This document shows, piece after piece, positions 48,250-58,027 of a stretch of DNA of 64,000 nucleotides. Under the pieces are notes generated by a model. The model saw nothing but the letters and a program-made list of their open reading frames with translations, was not told the origin of the DNA and made no database searches. Both the position numbers and the translations under genes were made by a program. Source of the DNA: an uncultured Dehalococcoidales bacterium. GTDB taxonomy: Bacteria; Chloroflexota; Dehalococcoidia; UBA1151; UBA1328. Every line of letters begins with the position of its first letter. The first letter of the stretch is position 1. The stretch covers positions 6,340 to 70,339 of the forward strand of contig CAJQSP010000003.1 in the NCBI GenBank assembly GCA_905614375.1, in the 5' to 3' direction.

Positions 48250-49461
48250 TTAGCCAATGGCACCGCTATTGCGGAGTCCTTGAACTTCTTTCGGCTCTAA
48301 AAAAAGCAGGTTTGCGAGTATCTCGTCCGTATGTTCGCCCAGCGATGGTCCAGGTGAAACGACTTGATTGGAACCTTCCGTCGATATTGCCGAACTCACT
48401 TGTTTGATCGTTCCGTAAACCGGGTGTTCAATCTCGACGATCAGGCCGCGTGCCTTGATTTGTTCGTCTTCGAATGCTTGTTCGATCGAATTAACTGGTC
48501 CAGACGGTACGATTCCCCTGAAACGATCTAGCCATTCGGCGTTATTTTTTTCCAATAGTCGCTCGGAAAGTATCGGAATCAGAATTTTCCGATTGTCATA
48601 GCGCAACGCGAAATTAGCGAATTTTTCATCAGAAATTAGTTCGGGCAATTCGATGAGTTCAGCGAATTTGCGCCAAAAATGTTCTTTAGCACAAAACACA
48701 TTAATCCATCCATCACTTGTCTGGAAGTTTTGAGCAGGTACCAACATCTGGTGCGATGAACTGGGCGTTCTTGCCGGTTGCCAGTCGGAATTCATTTGCC
48801 AAGATCCAAAATAGGTGAGCATCGAGACCGCGGTGTCGAGCAAGCTGACATCGACGTCTCTGCCAACACCCGTTGTGTTGGCCTCGAGCAGAGCAGCTAC
48901 TAAACCAAGAGCGGCTGCATAGCCTCCGGCGAAGTCGATTATCGATACCCCGGCTTTTCCTGGAGGTCCATCCGGTTCGCCCGTAATCGACATGTAACCG
49001 GCCATCGCTTGCATTATCGGATCGTACCCGGGTTCTGAGGCTCTAGGGCCTGTACGTCCAAACCCTGAAAGTGAGCATGTGACTATCGATGGATTTAGCG
49101 AACGTAGCGTTTCGTAGGTTAGGCCAAGCTTTTTTGGTAGATCGCCACGTAGGTTGTTGAAGACTGCATCTGACTTTTCGACAAGCTGGTGAAATATATT
49201 CACGCCTTCTGGCTTGCGAAGATCAATCGCTATCGATTTCTTACCGCGGTTGAAAGATTGGAAATATAGGGAATCGGCGTCGCTGGTCGCGGGTGGGACA
49301 TAACGCGCTACGTCTCCACCTGTTGTGGGATCTTCTATTTTTATTACTTCGGCACCAAGATCAGCAAGATTCATCGTAGCGAATGGTCCAGCACCGAACT
49401 GCGAGATGGCGAGGATACGGATGCCGTGCAGGGGGCCTTTTCGCTGTGGCTGTTCGGTCAA
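48250..49461 (-). CDS. CaiB/BaiF-family (class III) CoA-transferase
   Basis: 403 residues. The family moves CoA between carboxylic acids. Seen: GIRILAISQFGAGPFATMNLADLGAEVIKIE (in parts) at the N-terminus, NRGKKSIAIDLRKPEG near residue 70, and the catalytic Asp in EPGYDPIMQAMAG near residue 145. It begins with TTG two bases after the MaoC stop, so translation is coupled. Together with the MaoC hydratase and CitE-like lyase upstream it forms an activation-hydration-lysis triad. Itaconate, mesaconate or citramalate are likely acid partners (inference). Confidence 0.87.
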   Translation of the reverse strand: MTEQPQRKGPLHGIRILAISQFGAGPFATMNLADLGAEVIKIEDPTTGGDVARYVPPATSDADSLYFQSFNRGKKSIAIDLRKPEGVNIFHQLVEKSDAVFNNLRGDLPKKLGLTYETLRSLNPSIVTCSLSGFGRTGPRASEPGYDPIMQAMAGYMSITGEPDGPPGKAGVSIIDFAGGYAAALGLVAALLEANTTGVGRDVDVSLLDTAVSMLTYFGSWQMNSDWQPARTPSSSHQMLVPAQNFQTSDGWINVFCAKEHFWRKFAELIELPELISDEKFANFALRYDNRKILIPILSERLLEKNNAEWLDRFRGIVPSGPVNSIEQAFEDEQIKARGLIVEIEHPVYGTIKQVSSAISTEGSNQVVSPGPSLGEHTDEILANLLFLEPKEVQGLRNSGAIG

Positions 49462-49463
49462 GT

Positions 49464-49955
49464 TCAGGATTCCGAATCGTGGGCAATTTTGCCCTTGCCC
49501 AGAGTTGGGTGGTTCTTTTTAGGAATAAGCACGTGTCTTCGAACGACCATTACGCGCTCTTCACGTTGGTTCGTTACTTCGGTTTCGAGGTAAACGACGC
49601 CTCGATCGCCTTTGGACGTTACTCGTAGTTCAAGGATGGTCGACGTTGTATAGATGGAGTCACCGTGAAAAGTCGGACCTTCGTGTTGTACCGATTCGTA
49701 ATCTAAGTTTGCAATTGCCCGGAGTGAAATATCGTTAACCGTTTGTCCGATAGCAACAGCGAGTACTAGGAGCCCGTTTACAAGATTTTGTCCGTGCTGG
49801 GTGCTCTTGGCGTAGTGGGCATCAATGTGAACGGGGTGTTGGTTTTGTGTCAGAAGTGAAAACCATGAATTATCGGTCTCAGAGATAGTTCTACCAGGCC
49901 AGTGCTTAATTACCTGACCAACTTCGAATTCTTCGAAATAGCGTCCGTTACTCAT
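49464..49955 (-). CDS. MaoC-family (R)-hydratase/dehydratase
   Basis: 163 residues, one hot-dog domain. The hydratase-2 motif is HPVHIDAHYAKSTQHG near residue 42 (Asp and His of the catalytic pair), with FEEFEVGQVIKH at the start. It would hydrate an enoyl-CoA; related single-domain proteins include itaconyl-CoA/mesaconyl-CoA hydratase. It lies between the CitE-like lyase (gap 45 bases) and the CoA-transferase (gap 2). Confidence 0.85.
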   Translation of the reverse strand: MSNGRYFEEFEVGQVIKHWPGRTISETDNSWFSLLTQNQHPVHIDAHYAKSTQHGQNLVNGLLVLAVAIGQTVNDISLRAIANLDYESVQHEGPTFHGDSIYTTSTILELRVTSKGDRGVVYLETEVTNQREERVMVVRRHVLIPKKNHPTLGKGKIAHDSES

Positions 49956-50000
49956 TTTTATATTCTGTTCCTGATAGCACGAGTTGGTTAGTTTGAATTG

Positions 50001-50906
50001 TCATGAAATTCCGGCATTTCGGAGTACGTTTTGGGCCCTCAGAATAACCGGCATGTCGATCATCTCTCCATCGAGTGATACTGAACCTCGACCGTCTGCT
50101 TCAGCTTCAGCCGCTATTGCGAGTACTCGGTGAGCGCGATCAATTTCCGCGCTGGTAGGCATAAATATCAATTCAATCACTTCTACTTGGGCAGGGTGAA
50201 TGGCGAGCTTACCTTTGTAACCTATGGATTTGGAGAGCAGAGCTTCGTCGCGCAGCCCTTGGGAATCTCGGAATTTCGTAAATGGCGTGTCAAGAGCATG
50301 TACGCCGGCGGCCCTTGCGGCCATGGCTACAGCCGAGCGAGGGTAGGCGAGTCCTGGTTCAAGCGATGTTTGGGTGCTTGCTTCCGTTTCATCGACGGTG
50401 CGGCTAATTCCCATGTCGGCTGAAAAATCTTCGGCGCCGAAAGCTGCCCACCGAATACGATCGCTGGATTTGCAGATCGAATAGGCGTTAATTACTGCTT
50501 CTGCACTCTCGAGAAACGGGAGGATGGTTGTACGTCCAATTGACACTCCAGCTCGACGTTCAGCGTTGACAAGTATTGCTTCTAGTTCGGCTACTTCATT
50601 TGTGTTACCGATTTTACCGATGGATATTCCGATGATGTCATTTGAAATAACTGCATTAATGTCGTCTTCTACAAGACCTGATGCCATCGAATTGACTCGG
50701 GGGATAAGCAATTTTTCAGCTTTTGCGAGATGAGTAATGTGCTCTGCCACGATTCGCCGGGCTGCCCGCTTTTCGCCCGAAGGGACCGAATCTTCGAGGT
50801 CAGGGATCAACCATTTCGTATCGAATCCAACGGCTTTTTCCAGCATTTTGGGTTGGTTACCGGGTACGAACAGGAGGGTTCGAGGATTTGAGATTGTTTC
50901 GTGCAA
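50001..50906 (-). CDS. CitE-like (citramalyl/malyl-CoA) lyase
   Basis: 301 residues of the HpcH/HpaI aldolase/citrate lyase-beta family. Seen: TLLFVPGNQPKMLEKA at the start, LIPDLEDSVPSGEKRAAR near residue 38 (LEDxV and K/R), LIPRVNSMASG near residue 73 (R), FLESAEAVINAYSI near residue 140 (metal Glu), AAFGAEDFSADMG near residue 163 (metal Asp) and KLAIHPAQVEVI near residue 245. It cleaves malyl-CoA-like thioesters into acetyl-CoA plus glyoxylate, or citramalyl-CoA into acetyl-CoA plus pyruvate. The start is TTG, with no clear ribosome site. The first gene of the triad. Confidence 0.87.
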   Translation of the reverse strand: MHETISNPRTLLFVPGNQPKMLEKAVGFDTKWLIPDLEDSVPSGEKRAARRIVAEHITHLAKAEKLLIPRVNSMASGLVEDDINAVISNDIIGISIGKIGNTNEVAELEAILVNAERRAGVSIGRTTILPFLESAEAVINAYSICKSSDRIRWAAFGAEDFSADMGISRTVDETEASTQTSLEPGLAYPRSAVAMAARAAGVHALDTPFTKFRDSQGLRDEALLSKSIGYKGKLAIHPAQVEVIELIFMPTSAEIDRAHRVLAIAAEAEADGRGSVSLDGEMIDMPVILRAQNVLRNAGIS

Positions 50907-51084: not shown

Positions 51085-52035
51085 ATGAATATGTTCCTGC
51101 TAGCTGCCGATACCGACCCTGTCGCAAAGGCTGTCGAATCGCTTCTCTCCAACATTTCCGGCGTTTATCGTGTGACGGCTCAAGAATTCGCTGGTATTGA
51201 TTTTGGCTCTGAGGATGTTCTTCTCCTCGGTGAGAATGGTACATCGAACGAATTGATCTCCGAAGCTGAATTACCTCCAGTGGGGATGATCCAGCACCTT
51301 GGTTGCATGCCTTCACCTGCACTTCTTTCGATCGCCTCAGGATCTGATTCGCAGGTAATTGTCGCCGGGATTTCACCGAACATTGCTCCGAGAGTCGCTA
51401 ATCGAGTGATTGGTTTTACTGGCCCGCTAACTGTTCGTCCGCTGCCGGATTGGGGCGTGATTGGTGTCGGAGAAGTTGGAGTTGAAGTCGTAAAAAAAGC
51501 ACTTGCTACTCGGTCTTCAGTTGGGATTGCTGAGATCCGGACGCCAAGATCAGGATTGTTGACCGAACTGGGCGTACGTCGACATTCACTGGATCTTCTG
51601 GTCGCAGGTTCGGATGTGGTTACGATTCACGTTCACGCCGGTTCCACAACCTCGCCATTAATTTCCGACCGCGAATTGGGATTGATGAAGTCAGATGCGG
51701 TTCTGATCAATACTTCAAACTCTTCAGTCGTACATGAGAGTGCTGTTATTGAGGCGCTGGAATGCGGCGAAATCGCCGGTTACGCCACAGACTGCCCCGG
51801 TGATGCTATTTCCACCGCCGATGAATCTTTGGCTGCATCGGGAAAGTTGATCGTCACTACTAATCCTCTGACGAATCAAATTGGTGCACCTCAACAGCTC
51901 GCCAAGTATGTTTTAGCAAATGCAGAAGCGTTCAAAAGCAAATCGACCGTTCGTGGAATATACGAACCGATTGATTTTCCTACGATTGGCGACCCGAGCT
52001 TTTGGTCATCACGGATGAGTCCACGTCAGGACTGA
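51085..52035 (+). CDS. Degenerate 2-hydroxyacid dehydrogenase-like protein
   Basis: 316 residues with the D-2-hydroxyacid dehydrogenase fold: Rossmann loop WGVIGVGEVGVEVVKKAL near residue 130 and helix KSDAVLINTSNSSVVHESAVI near residue 220 in two parts. The three catalytic residues are not where the family has them: the Arg of TxRG is replaced (INTSNSSV), the Glu region reads YATDCPGDAI, and the His of TPH is replaced (VTTNPLTNQIG). The N-terminal half is short and weakly conserved. It may bind NAD(H) without dehydrogenase activity or have a new role. It converges on the formate dehydrogenase stop, 2 bases apart. Confidence 0.75.
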   Translation: MNMFLLAADTDPVAKAVESLLSNISGVYRVTAQEFAGIDFGSEDVLLLGENGTSNELISEAELPPVGMIQHLGCMPSPALLSIASGSDSQVIVAGISPNIAPRVANRVIGFTGPLTVRPLPDWGVIGVGEVGVEVVKKALATRSSVGIAEIRTPRSGLLTELGVRRHSLDLLVAGSDVVTIHVHAGSTTSPLISDRELGLMKSDAVLINTSNSSVVHESAVIEALECGEIAGYATDCPGDAISTADESLAASGKLIVTTNPLTNQIGAPQQLAKYVLANAEAFKSKSTVRGIYEPIDFPTIGDPSFWSSRMSPRQD

Positions 52036-52037
52036 GC

Positions 52038-54785
52038 CTAATCGGCTGCCGGTGATGATGCTTCGATCTTGTCGATTCGAATCGCACACGCCTTAAATTC
52101 AGGCGTTTCGGTGATGAAATCGTAGGCATCCGAAGTAAGCCGGTTGGTCTGCGTAAGTTCTGGGAACGCAAAACTCATGAACACAGTTCCGTGGGGCGAT
52201 CGATCTGTTACTTTGATCGGTACCTCGACTGTTCCTCTTCTTGAGCTAACGGTTACTTTCTGACCGTCGACGAGTTCCATTTGCTCCGCATCGAACGGAT
52301 TGATCTCAGCAAGCTCCGACGGAACTAGTAGTTCAAACCCTGTAGCGCGGCCAGTTTGAGTGCCCGTGTGATAGGTCGAACGGCGCCTACCGGTAGTTAG
52401 TACCAATGGATATTCGGAGTCGGTTGGCTCTGCTGGTGGAATGTGATCCACAGGGGCAAAGTAGCCGGGCATTCCGGACTCCATCTCGTCTTCGTGTAGG
52501 AACTGAGTCCCGGGATGGTCTTCAGTCGGGCAAGGCCACTGAATTCCATCTTCGGAATCCAAACGGTCGTAAGTGATACCGGTGAATATCGGTGCCAGCT
52601 TTCTCATCTCATCCCAAACGTCAGAGGGTGAGTGCAGGTTTTGGACCACCCCGAATCGTTCCATAAGGTCTAACAAAATGTCGACATCTGTGCGCGATTC
52701 GCCAACCGGTTTTATCGCCGGCCGAACCCGCTGAACGCGCCGCTCACTGTTGGCGAAAGTACCGTCAGATTCTGCAAATGATCCAGCCGGCAAAACGACG
52801 TCGGCAAGCTTTGCAGTGTCGGTCATGAATATGTCTTGAACCACGATGAAGTCGGTGGCTTCGAGCGCCGCTTGAGCATGGTTGGTATTAGGATCGGAAA
52901 TGACAGTATTTTCGCCCATAATATAGGCCGCTTTAACCTTGCCTTTAAGCATCTGGTCCATCGCTGTAATTTTCGTAATTCCGCGACGTTTTGGAAGGTC
53001 CGCACCCCACGCTTTTTCGAACTTTTCACGTACACCAGGTCGTTCGACTTTTTGGTAGCCCGGAAGGTCGGTAGGCAGTGCTCCTGAATCGGACGCACCC
53101 TGCACGTTATTTTGACCTCGAAGCGGGTTCACACCTGCGTTTGGTTTCCCAAAGTTCCCACCGAGCATGCCTAGATTCGCAATTGATTGAACGTTGTGCG
53201 ATCCGCAAGAGTGCTCGGTAATTCCGAGCGTGTAGCAAATAGCCGCTTTTCCAGACGCAGTTGCGTATTCTCGGGCCGTAGCGATAATGTCTTCGGCGGG
53301 AACCCCGCAGATTTCGGCTGCATATTCGGGCGTGTAGAACTCGACATGCTTAGCGAGTTCATCGAATCCTTCCGTGCGGTTTTCGACGTACTCTCGATCG
53401 AAGAGCCCTTCTTTGATCATCACATGTGCGAAGGCGTTGAACAGCGGAATGTCGGTGCCAATGTTGATCTGTAAATATCGAGTCGCCCATTTGGTGAGTT
53501 CGATCTTGCGCGGGTCGATTACGATGAGTTTTGCACCGTTTTTGACAGCGCGTTTCATTCGCAGTGAGATTACCGGGTGTGCCTCAGTCGTGTTTGATCC
53601 TACGACCAACAGAAGATCGGTTTCTGCTAACTCTTCAATCGAGTTAGTCATGGCACCTTTGCCAACCATGACCGCCATACCGGCGACCGTTGGAGCGTGT
53701 CAGGTACGGGAACAGTTATCGATATTGTTAGTACCGAAACCTATCCGGGCGAATTTCTGCATCAGATAGTTAGCTTCTGTGACCGTTCGTGCTGACGACC
53801 AGCAAACGAGAGAATCGGGACCTGAATCATCTCGAATGGTGGTGAATCGTTTTGTGACGAGGTTGAGAGCTTCGTCCCACGACGCACGCCTGAACGAACC
53901 ATTCTCCTTGATGAGAGGGTATTTGAGTCGTTCGTCGCTTTTAACGAACTCCCACGATGCGAACTGACCTTTTACGCAAAGAGAGCCGCGGCTTGGAGCA
54001 TCGAAATCTGGCTCAGTTCCCTTTAGTTGACCGTCTTCAGTGAGCAGATGAATACCACAGCCGACTCCGCAATACGGACAGATCGTTTTTGTGCGTTCAA
54101 GATTTTCGGCCTTCGTAGTGCCGACGATCTTTTTGTCTGTAAGTGCTCCGGTAGGGCAGGTGTTGATGCACTGACCACAGAACGTGCAAGGCGATTCGAG
54201 AAGTTTATTGTTGAAGAACGAGGCGATTGTATTTTCTTGCCCACGCCCTTTAACTGCGATTGCTCCGGCTTGCTCCCAATCGTTACAGATGTTTGTGCAG
54301 CGGAAGCACGAGATGCAGTAGTCGTAGTCACGCTGGATGAACGGATTGTCATCCTTAGCTTTCTCTCGAACAACCAATGAAGGAAATGCGTCCCATTTCG
54401 CATCGTATTCTTCAGCGGCAGTGTGCAGTTCACATTTCTTGAATGAAATGCATTTTGGACAGTTGGCAGGAGATGACGTTTCAGAGAGCAACATTTCAAG
54501 AATCGTCTTGCGATAGTCGGTGATCGAATCGGAGTGTGTTTCAACCCGCATTTCTTCTGAAGCAAAGGCAGTGCATGCGGCGATCTGCTGTATTTGACCG
54601 TTTACCTCGACATCCACTAAGCACATGCGGCAAGTGCCCTGAGGACCGGTTCGTTCGTCGTAGCACAATGTTGGCACGTCGAAGCCGGCAGATCTGATGG
54701 CGTCTAGGACCCGAGCGTCGGTACCGCAATCAATTGTGATTCCGTTCACTTCTACGTTCAGTCTATTTTTGACTTGTGTTGTCAT
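52038..54785 (-). CDS. fdhA: Selenocysteine-containing formate dehydrogenase, alpha subunit
   Basis: One 915-residue protein if UGA at 53700-53702 is read as Sec (residue 362). N-terminal NuoG-like part: [2Fe-2S] (CYDERTGPQGTCRMC, AAC), His-Cys [4Fe-4S] (CPKCISFKKC), two [4Fe-4S] (CISCFRCTNIC, CTFCGQCINTC); molybdopterin oxidoreductase part with the [4Fe-4S] CPYCGVGCGIH and then NIDNCSRT-U-HAPTVAGM, exactly where FdhF/FdsA enzymes have Cys or Sec, the molybdenum/tungsten ligand. The second part goes on with VVGSNTTEAHPV and ends with the C-terminal molybdopterin domain (GHRRSTYHTGTQTGR-like segment TGRRRSTYHTGTQT). It oxidises formate to CO2. No beta/flavin subunit is adjacent. Terminal reading would otherwise give a 361-residue stump. 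Confidence 0.9.
53670..53702 (-). promoter_or_regulatory. Bacterial SECIS hairpin following the fdhA UGA
   Basis: In mRNA sense: UGA, 11 bases, GGUCGCC (53688-53682), loop GGUAU (53681-53677), GGCGGUC (53676-53670). The 7-base stem has two wobble pairs at its base and the loop contains GGU. E. coli fdhF has UGA, 11 bases, GGUUGCA, GGUC, UGCACC: the same spacing and the same GGU in the loop, which SelB contacts. Confidence 0.85.
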
Positions 54786-54880: not shown

Positions 54881-55555
54881 TTATGACTTGCTGTTAGATG
54901 AACTTGAAGCTGAAGACTCGCCTTGAACTTCTTTGATGCGGCGCCAAACGATCCAAATTGCGATTACCGAGATTGAGCCGATAATCGGAATATCGAACGG
55001 CTTCGAGACGTCTCGAATCGAATCGTAGTTCTCACCAAGCAGGAATCCACCCCATGCTAGACCGACTGTCCAGGGTAGGGCGCCTATAAACGTGAAAATG
55101 GCGAATCGGGTCACGTTCATTCTGGCGATTCCGGCAGGTATCGAGATGAATCCTCGAACGCCAGGAATCATTCTCGCGACGAACACAGTGAGCTCTCCTC
55201 GAGTTTGGAACCACCGATCAGCTCGCTCAAGGTCTTTCTGGGTGATTAGGACGTACTTGCCGTACTTCTCGATGAAAGGACGCCCTCCCGCACGCGCTAC
55301 GTAATATTCGGCTAGTGATCCGATCAAGCTTCCGACTGCTCCCCAGAAACCTGCAAGGAATACGTAGGTGATTCCGTGACCGCGGTCTAGGACGAGTCGC
55401 CAGCCCGCCATCGGCATGATCACTTCGCTTGGTAGGGGAATGGCTGTGCTTTCGATCGACATCAAGACGACAACTCCAAACCATCCCATGAAGTCGTACA
55501 CGTCAGTGGAGAACGTCAGAACCAATGTCTCGAGCGCGTGAATGAGTTCGGTCAT
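54881..55555 (-). CDS. DedA/SNARE-associated family membrane protein
   Basis: 224 residues from ATG 55553-55555. Seen: IESTAIPLPSEVIMPMAG (the E-x3-P-x-P-x-E-x3-P motif of DedA), GAVGSLIGSLAEYYVARAGGRP, and FVARMIPGVRGFISIPAGIARMN (R-x-x-P-x-x-R) followed by FTFIGALPWTVGLAWGGFLLG. Ends with a TM and a Ser-rich tail. DedA proteins flip lipids/undecaprenyl phosphate at the inner membrane. The frame is open to 55660, but those residues lack the DedA features and the ATG starts MTELIHALETL, usual for the family. Downstream of fdhA's promoter side. Confidence 0.88.
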   Translation of the reverse strand: MTELIHALETLVLTFSTDVYDFMGWFGVVVLMSIESTAIPLPSEVIMPMAGWRLVLDRGHGITYVFLAGFWGAVGSLIGSLAEYYVARAGGRPFIEKYGKYVLITQKDLERADRWFQTRGELTVFVARMIPGVRGFISIPAGIARMNVTRFAIFTFIGALPWTVGLAWGGFLLGENYDSIRDVSKPFDIPIIGSISVIAIWIVWRRIKEVQGESSASSSSNSKS

Positions 55556-55764
55556 CGGATCTATGGGAGTTTCTCCAAAAGGTATCTGAAGGCAGAAGGG
55601 CAGAAGTACTGAGCCGTAGGAGTAGCCGCACTTTAATGTGACACCGTGCTCTCGAAGCAATATTCGTAATTCTAACAGCGCTCCTGTTTTATTAACGACT
55701 GAATTCTTTACCAGCAGCCCGCACTGGCTTGAAGTCTGTTTTGAACTGGAAGGTCGACGGAGAC

Positions 55765-57268: not shown

Positions 57269-58027
57269 CTACGACCAAGTGGCTCCTGCGATTGAGGCGG
57301 CCTGATACCCGGCACCGAAGCCGTTATCGATGTTTACGACCGATACACCAGGCGCACACGAGTTCATCATGGCTAAGAGTGCTGCAACTCCACCGAGGCT
57401 GACGCCGTAGCCAACGGAGGTCGGTAGGGCGATCACAGGTGCTTTGACGAGTCCACCAACAACGCTAGGCAGTGCGCCTTCCATTCCAGCGACCACAATC
57501 ACCACTCGAGCGTTGCTTAGTTCGTCGATCCGCCCTGAAAGTCTATGAAGGCCAGCAACACCGACATCGGTGATCATTTTTACGTCGCAGCCCATGAGCG
57601 AAGCCGTCAGAACCGCTTCACGCGCTATAGGTAAATCGGATGTTCCTGCTGCGACAACGACTACGCCTTTGAGCAGATCTTTTTTATTTCGTCGATCTGC
57701 CCAAATTGCCCGTGGCCCCTCTTCCCAAACGGCATCAGGTACGGCTTTTTGAAATAATGCGAACGCTTCTTCCGAAGATTTAGTGACTAAAACGACATCG
57801 GAATTTGTATAGATTTTCTCGGCTATTGCCGCAGTGTCTTTTGGTGTTTTACTTAGTCCATATACAACTTCAGGAAAGCCGGTTCTTTCACCACGATCAT
57901 GGTCTATGTTAGCGAAATCTAGGTCGGAAGTGGGCGCCGTTAGGCTCAGTTCGGAGGTGGCTCGTTCTGCCGACATTTTGCCGTCGGCTACCAGTTGCAT
58001 GATTTCGCTGATTTGAGATTTATTCAT
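57269..58027 (-). CDS. larB: LarB, nickel-pincer cofactor biosynthesis (AIR-carboxylase-like)
   Basis: 252 residues. LarB carboxylates and hydrolyses nicotinic acid adenine dinucleotide in the first step of nickel-pincer cofactor synthesis. Seen: DRGERTGFPEVVYG near residue 44, VVVVAAGTSDLPIAREA near residue 122, GVAGLHRLSGRID near residue 157, VVAGMEGALPSVVGGLV near residue 177, LPTSVGYGVSLGG and VVNIDNGFGAGYQA near residue 235. This order is specific to LarB as opposed to PurE. larC, larE and a LarA-type racemase are not in the window. Convergent with the cytochrome gene. Confidence 0.9.
   Translation of the reverse strand: MNKSQISEIMQLVADGKMSAERATSELSLTAPTSDLDFANIDHDRGERTGFPEVVYGLSKTPKDTAAIAEKIYTNSDVVLVTKSSEEAFALFQKAVPDAVWEEGPRAIWADRRNKKDLLKGVVVVAAGTSDLPIAREAVLTASLMGCDVKMITDVGVAGLHRLSGRIDELSNARVVIVVAGMEGALPSVVGGLVKAPVIALPTSVGYGVSLGGVAALLAMMNSCAPGVSVVNIDNGFGAGYQAASIAGATWS

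Follow-up and report, generated by a model that had tools for sequence, protein, structure and literature searches.

Several described systems can be compared with the locus studied here. In Dehalogenimonas alkenigignens IP3-3, a member of the class Dehalococcoidia, a selenocysteine (Sec)-containing formate dehydrogenase (FDH) and a Sec-containing SelD, with in-frame UGA and putative SECIS, have been reported together with Sec synthesis genes, selB and selC (PMC4918011, accessible text). Sec genes are likewise present in relatives of the organism analyzed here, and the original prediction that Sec use would be notable in this Chloroflexota proved less novel than stated because the Dehalogenimonas proteins, from the same class, precede it. 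The two cases differ in lifestyle: Dehalogenimonas is a strict anaerobe and organohalide respirer, whereas the present lineage is marine (SAR202) and has an aerobic cultured member. The FdhA proteins of the Dehalococcoidia single cells DscP3 and An-B22 share the 2Fe-2S, 4Fe-4S and molybdopterin domains of the enzyme described below, with Sec in An-B22; an FdhB partner gene accompanies FdhA in DscP3, whereas none was matched among the ten neighbouring ORFs scanned here (PMC5736913, accessible text). Selenoprotein families from the GOS metagenome, namely SelW-like (CxxU), peroxiredoxin (TxxU), peroxiredoxin-like and thioredoxin-like (UxxC), SelD and FdhA, resemble those found in this study, a likeness judged by motif and Pfam family and not by alignment to the GOS sequences (PMC2398784, accessible text). 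The GOS families are metagenome sequences, whereas those reported here reside in SAR202 genomes, and the main text of PMC2398784 holds no word beginning with 'Chloroflex'. Lucifugimonas has been described as aerobic, oligotrophic and isolated in the dark; the main text of that paper, its supplement aside, contains no word beginning with 'selen' or 'formate' (PMC10444878). No description of SAR202 selenoproteins was found in the literature searched, which had most subscription papers and all bioRxiv preprints outside its scope.

The window, the whole stretch of 64,000 nucleotides that was analyzed, carries on its minus strand a gene for the FDH alpha subunit (54785-52038), 915 codons long when read through one UGA. 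This TGA at codon 362 (53702-53700) is the sole internal stop of the frame, and the reading as Sec is based on the frame and its conservation. It separates an N-terminal open stretch of 361 amino acids (53700-54785, minus strand), at whose end a gene caller would stop, from a C-terminal open stretch of 546 amino acids starting at an ATG (52038-53678, minus strand), which is the fragment type found in databases. The plus-strand reading of the region was rejected since it is full of stops, which places the gene on the minus strand. The full-length protein passes the TIGR01591 equivalog model for FDH alpha with 789.1 bits against a curated cut-off of 666.25. It comprises a [2Fe-2S] domain (residues 7-85), a 4Fe-4S ferredoxin-like domain (148-216), a Molybdop_Fe4S4 domain (231-276), the molybdopterin oxidoreductase core (286-710) and a molydopterin-binding (dinucleotide-binding) domain (794-901). 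E. coli FdhH (1aa6) matches at 5.5e-167; the window protein differs from it by the fused N-terminal [2Fe-2S]/4Fe-4S extension.

Around codon 362 the sequence reads NIDNCSRT-U-HAPTV. The segment SRT-U-HAPTV aligns with ARLCHAPTV in 7qv7, a solved FdhF, and with ARLXHSATV in 9t1s, an F420-linked FDH, so that U stands opposite Cys in the former and a non-standard residue X in the latter. The FDH of the window thus shows the pattern of Cys or Sec followed by His, which we take to be the metal-ligand position of FDH alpha. Two claims of the original prediction, that the adjacent open stretches are one frame split only by the TGA and that this TGA occupies the active-site Cys/Sec position, are borne out by these data. 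The window FDH is predicted with high confidence to be a selenoprotein, and as such it is one more example of an already known type of Sec FDH.

The genomic surroundings were scanned against NCBIfam. Among ten neighbouring ORFs between 48 and 64 kb, two of which match no NCBIfam family, there is no NuoE/NuoF-like diaphorase, the kind of partner that NAD-dependent FDH complexes (FdhAB and FdsABG) have. The FDH gene adjoins a VTT/DedA-type protein gene (54881-55660, minus strand), and a gene for LarB, of nickel-pincer cofactor biosynthesis, lies farther away (57269-58027, minus strand). Three adjacent genes at 48250-50906 (minus strand) resemble a CaiB-type CoA-transferase, a RipB/Ich-type hydratase and a RipC/CitE-type lyase, all below the curated cut-offs, and look like a set for itaconate or mesaconate degradation.

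The 7-bp hairpin with GGU in the loop that had been predicted 11 bases past the TGA is present. This SECIS-like element (GGUCGCC-GGUAU-GGCGGUC; 53670-53688, minus strand) starts 11 nt after the UGA, and its stem is formed by five Watson-Crick and two G-U pairs closed by the apical loop GGUAU (53681-53677, minus strand). The E. coli fdhF SECIS presumably has a similar UGA-hairpin spacing and a GGU loop; the loop of the window continues as GGUAU, and the bulged U that we take to be part of the fdhF hairpin is lacking. Within the Chloroflexota, all seven pairs of the stem are formed in 33 of 34 sequences (the window and 33 loci, among the matches listed; the locus L029, without coverage of the site, was left out), with the loops GGUAU in 14, GGUCU in 14 and GGGAU in 6 of them.

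Synonymous variation provided the decisive test of this element. The window was compared with 13 loci that are 84-96% identical to it in amino acids and 73-89% in nucleotides. Across the whole gene only 8 of 221 four-fold-degenerate columns (those at which the 14 sequences agree on one residue, V, T, A, G or P) have an invariant third base, and 6 of these 8 lie inside the hairpin, whose four-fold codons are all invariant (6 of 6; hypergeometric P 1.9e-10, a value that treats columns as independent). A broader count of degenerate columns gave 26 invariant out of 674, again with 6 of 6 in the hairpin, which is the longest run in the gene. The synonymous freeze is confined to the hairpin. The downstream hairpin is thus under selection, although it misses the Rfam gathering score: the SECIS_3 model matches with 32.2 bits (E 1e-5 for a search of 251 bases) against a gathering score of 63, and at gathering scores the whole window yields only a tRNA and no SECIS match. 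Folding energy was rejected as proof of a SECIS, because z-scores of -0.3 (46-nt piece), -0.3 (48 nt) and -1.8 (66 nt) are ordinary and not clearly better than those of shuffled sequences, and hence give no evidence for one. In a scoring of hairpins with GG in the loop, the FDH site came out on top with 9.5, a narrow lead over the runner-up at 9.0, among the 123 in-frame TGAs of the window that have an open frame on both sides. None of these 123 candidates pointed convincingly to a further selenoprotein in the window.

Conservation of the TGA was followed in a scan for FDH loci with one genome per species, which gave at least 80 loci, 79 of them covering the site. Among the matches listed, TGA is found in all 33 Chloroflexota loci that cover the site and, over all phyla, in 76 of the 79, the other three having the Cys codons TGT or TGC. 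A position at which UGA stands for the Cys of homologues is evident from those three loci and from six full-length proteins within the best 120 database hits. Every one of the 13 close genomes, those of the 13 loci compared above, has an FDH alpha gene with one TGA, and their 14 further FDH-like matches are without internal stop. A sample of 294 genomes from the class of the close genome G001, with up to three candidates scored per genome, contained 172 with an FDH match at 1e-100. The ten best of these matches (55-89% identity) all have one TGA, in one case with an additional TAG, and the other matches listed (38-52% identity) are mixed, some with TGA, many stop-free and some with TAA or TAG. 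These data also bear on another idea, in which a decaying gene for a Cys-FDH acquired the TGA lately by nonsense mutation, or a sequencing error put it there. Either an error or a young pseudogene would indeed present one in-frame stop, and Cys homologues do exist further away; yet TGA recurs in every Chloroflexota locus listed that covers the site, the gene has no other stop and the six four-fold codons of the hairpin are frozen, which makes such an origin extremely improbable.

In protein databases the enzyme appears mostly in pieces. Among the best 120 hits, 114 are 506-558 amino acids long; none of these extends further towards the N terminus than residue 370 of the complete enzyme, and in 100 of them residue 370 is the first. 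They include the entry of Candidatus Lucifugimonas marina, which has 545 amino acids and is named molybdopterin-dependent oxidoreductase; the other six hits are the full-length proteins with Cys, which are 48-50% identical. The expectation that annotation would report broken genes thus holds for the C-terminal half, N-terminal fragments being outside the length range of the database search. One might read the same entries as a split enzyme, in which a first polypeptide ends with the UGA as its stop and a second one is started from the ATG at 53678. This ATG follows the UGA as the eighth codon and is the very start of those 100 fragments, and partial termination is usual at Sec codons. However, no Cys or Sec ligand would remain in such an enzyme, the frozen synonymous sites of the hairpin would be left unexplained, and nothing would account for the constant choice of TGA as the stop among the TGA-bearing relatives. 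We consider a split enzyme very unlikely and continue with Sec insertion into one polypeptide.

Sec insertion requires a dedicated machinery, and the original prediction of selA, selB, selD and tRNA-Sec was followed up in the 13 close genomes (G001-G013), chosen because their loci are full-length or nearly so and at least 84% identical; L029, 89% identical and partial, was left out of this set as well. One of them, G001, is a complete genome, the chromosome of Ca. Lucifugimonas marina JH1073, which belongs to the SAR202 cluster (group I) of the Dehalococcoidia. SelB, SelA and SelD exceed their curated cut-offs in all 13 genomes, with one SelA partial and each SelD gene having its own single in-frame TGA. 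A tRNA-Sec of at least 65 bits is present in 12 of the 13, G005 having only a 53-bit match, and ARAGORN confirmed a tRNA-Sec with UCA anticodon in all six genomes checked. Because the Rfam tRNA-Sec model is unspecific at its gathering score, which 5 of 14 control genomes pass, lower matches mean little. Those of 48-54 bits probably do not represent additional tRNA-Sec genes; ARAGORN, applied to two of them from genomes other than G005 (L100 and L106), called tRNA-Ser with anticodon GCT. In L. marina, the region G001:C1:1570745-1573373 (L099) has the tRNA-Sec gene next to a gene for a thioredoxin and to a partial match of FDH/NuoG type. Of 20 further genomes, 19 have a SelD gene, always with one TGA, and 17 have SelB; among the 14 controls, only E. 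coli and Methanocaldococcus jannaschii pass for SelB and SelD. The predicted machinery is thus present in close relatives, and by this token we infer it for the organism of the window itself.

The SelD genes of the relatives provide a second case. The protein reads CAG-U-AGKLS around the TGA, and a hairpin follows whose loop starts 32 nt after the UGA, with GGU at the loop start, at a fixed place, in 30 of 32 sequences. Its 8-bp stem has changed on both sides at three pairs (3, 4 and 6), and at least one pair is broken in 11 of the 32 sequences, notably in L132, L134 and six small-assembly relatives. Two unrelated genes of the same genomes thus have loops that resemble each other. In the SelD genes L128 (G012) and L144 (G319), the loop begins with UGU instead of GGU and two stem pairs are broken in each. 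A separate observation concerns six FDH loci from assemblies of 1.3-1.5 Mb (L017, L018, L022, L023, L024 and L026), which have the loop GGGAU and not GGUNU. SelB reaches 265-292 bits in four of these genomes and has no match at 1e-60 in the other two (G312 and G314). That this clade has exchanged GGU for GGG in its SECIS loops throughout is not supported, because the loop position in SelD of the same six genomes is still GGU, with a weaker stem that is mismatched at pairs 5 and 7; in the SelD stem L147, pair 6 is mismatched besides 5 and 7.

Beyond FDH and SelD, four families (AhpC-TSA, Rdx, Thioredoxin and AhpD) were covered in the 13 genomes. Exactly one in-frame TGA occurs in 57 of 149 matches to Pfam AhpC-TSA, none of which has TAA or TAG, and 11 of 24 matches to Rdx (SelW-like) have one TGA and no other stop. 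The Thioredoxin family (PF00085) gave no TGA within 54 matches, two weak ones having TAG, and there was no match for AhpD (CMD, PF02627). The SelW-like genes form close neighbouring pairs in 11 of these genomes, one copy with TGA and one without, for example at G001:C1:1276429-1276982. In all 30 cases inspected (24 of the 57 AhpC-TSA and 6 of the 11 SelW-like matches), the TGA lies in what looks like a redox motif: FTGG-U, F[SAT]RG-U, W-U-xxC-type, YC-U-INC, W-U-AC or YCV[PT]-U. Comparison with solved structures covered three of these families. In one, U aligns with the Cys of a mycobacterial peroxiredoxin, which we take to be AhpE; in another, it corresponds to a Ser at the equivalent position in the entry of a Bcp-type peroxiredoxin; and in the third, it aligns with the second Cys of CC-INC in SOQ1, with NHLRC2 matching too. 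In each of three hairpins of the peroxiredoxin family, one pair has changed in a compensatory manner, as judged over 6, 5 and 3 sequences. Of the 24 inspected AhpC-TSA genes, L181 and L183 are without a hairpin of five or more pairs; only five-pair hairpins were seen in L169 and L171, both from L. marina, and in L174, L184 and L195.

The AhpE-like protein is also mostly truncated in the database, as is FDH, these being the two that were looked up: 62 of its 87 hits are shorter than 135 amino acids. Among the remaining 25, the site is occupied by Cys in 23 and by Trp in one (P0122), and the motif is not visible in the last (P0149). P0122, a metagenome entry, is probably a gene call under genetic code 4. 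Read literally, its Trp would fit an altered code in which UGA is translated throughout as Trp or Cys, as would the fact that TGA is the rarest terminator of the window, ending 6 of 48 open frames of at least 200 codons when the Sec codon is excluded. Yet TGA does terminate those six frames, including that of the neighbour gene at 51085-52035, the 30 inspected genes of relatives have their in-frame TGA in a redox motif, and SelA, SelB, SelD and tRNA-Sec are present in those relatives. A general reassignment of UGA is accordingly scarcely credible, which leads back to Sec.

When each match to FDH, SelD, AhpC/TSA or SelW-like proteins that has one TGA is taken as a candidate selenoprotein gene, the count for L. 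marina is at least 8, all 8 sites having been inspected, and at least 6 are found in 10 of the 13 genomes, with part of the sites inspected outside L. marina; G005, G007 and G011 have 5. The term 'selenoprotein-rich' has been used for organisms with at least six selenoprotein genes (PMC5029168, accessible text). By this sequence-based tally of candidates, 10 of the 13 relatives, L. marina among them, would reach that mark. The new part of the analysis is this apparently selenoprotein-rich SAR202 lineage, which is partly hidden by annotation.

With the frame, its UGA, the constrained hairpin, their conservation and the Sec machinery of close relatives all observed, it is nearly certain that the locus is a single gene of a SAR202 group I (Lucifugimonadales-like) bacterium for a Sec-containing Mo/W bis-MGD FDH alpha, in which Sec would be inserted at residue 362 via SelB and the hairpin. 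SelD would supply selenophosphate and SelA would make Sec-tRNA(UCA), with which SelB would bind the hairpin 11 nt after the UGA. Once inserted at residue 362, Sec would act as a ligand of the metal and participate in the oxidation of formate, and electrons would exit via the N-terminal iron-sulphur domains to an acceptor that is not among the neighbouring genes scanned.

The wider proposal, to which we give an even chance, is that SAR202 group I, a widespread oceanic group with an aerobic cultured member, is selenoprotein-rich and bases much of its peroxide and thiol defence on Sec. This set would include AhpE-like, PrxQ-like and redoxin peroxidases, a SOQ1/NHLRC2-like thioredoxin protein and TlpA-like and SelW-like proteins. 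Selenium supply may then limit growth and help to explain why these bacteria are hard to cultivate. A widespread marine group would thus use Sec while annotation hides the usage: because most predicted proteins lack the active-site residue in the case of FDH and at least one peroxiredoxin, metabolic models of SAR202 and proteomics searches can miss these enzymes. The genomes would also assign named hosts to selenoprotein families that have hitherto been seen mainly in marine metagenomes (PMC2398784, accessible text). They predict a selenium requirement that is testable in the existing culture, and they would extend a mostly anaerobic trait to a lineage whose cultured member is aerobic, 78.3% of selenoprotein-rich organisms being anaerobic (PMC5029168, accessible text).
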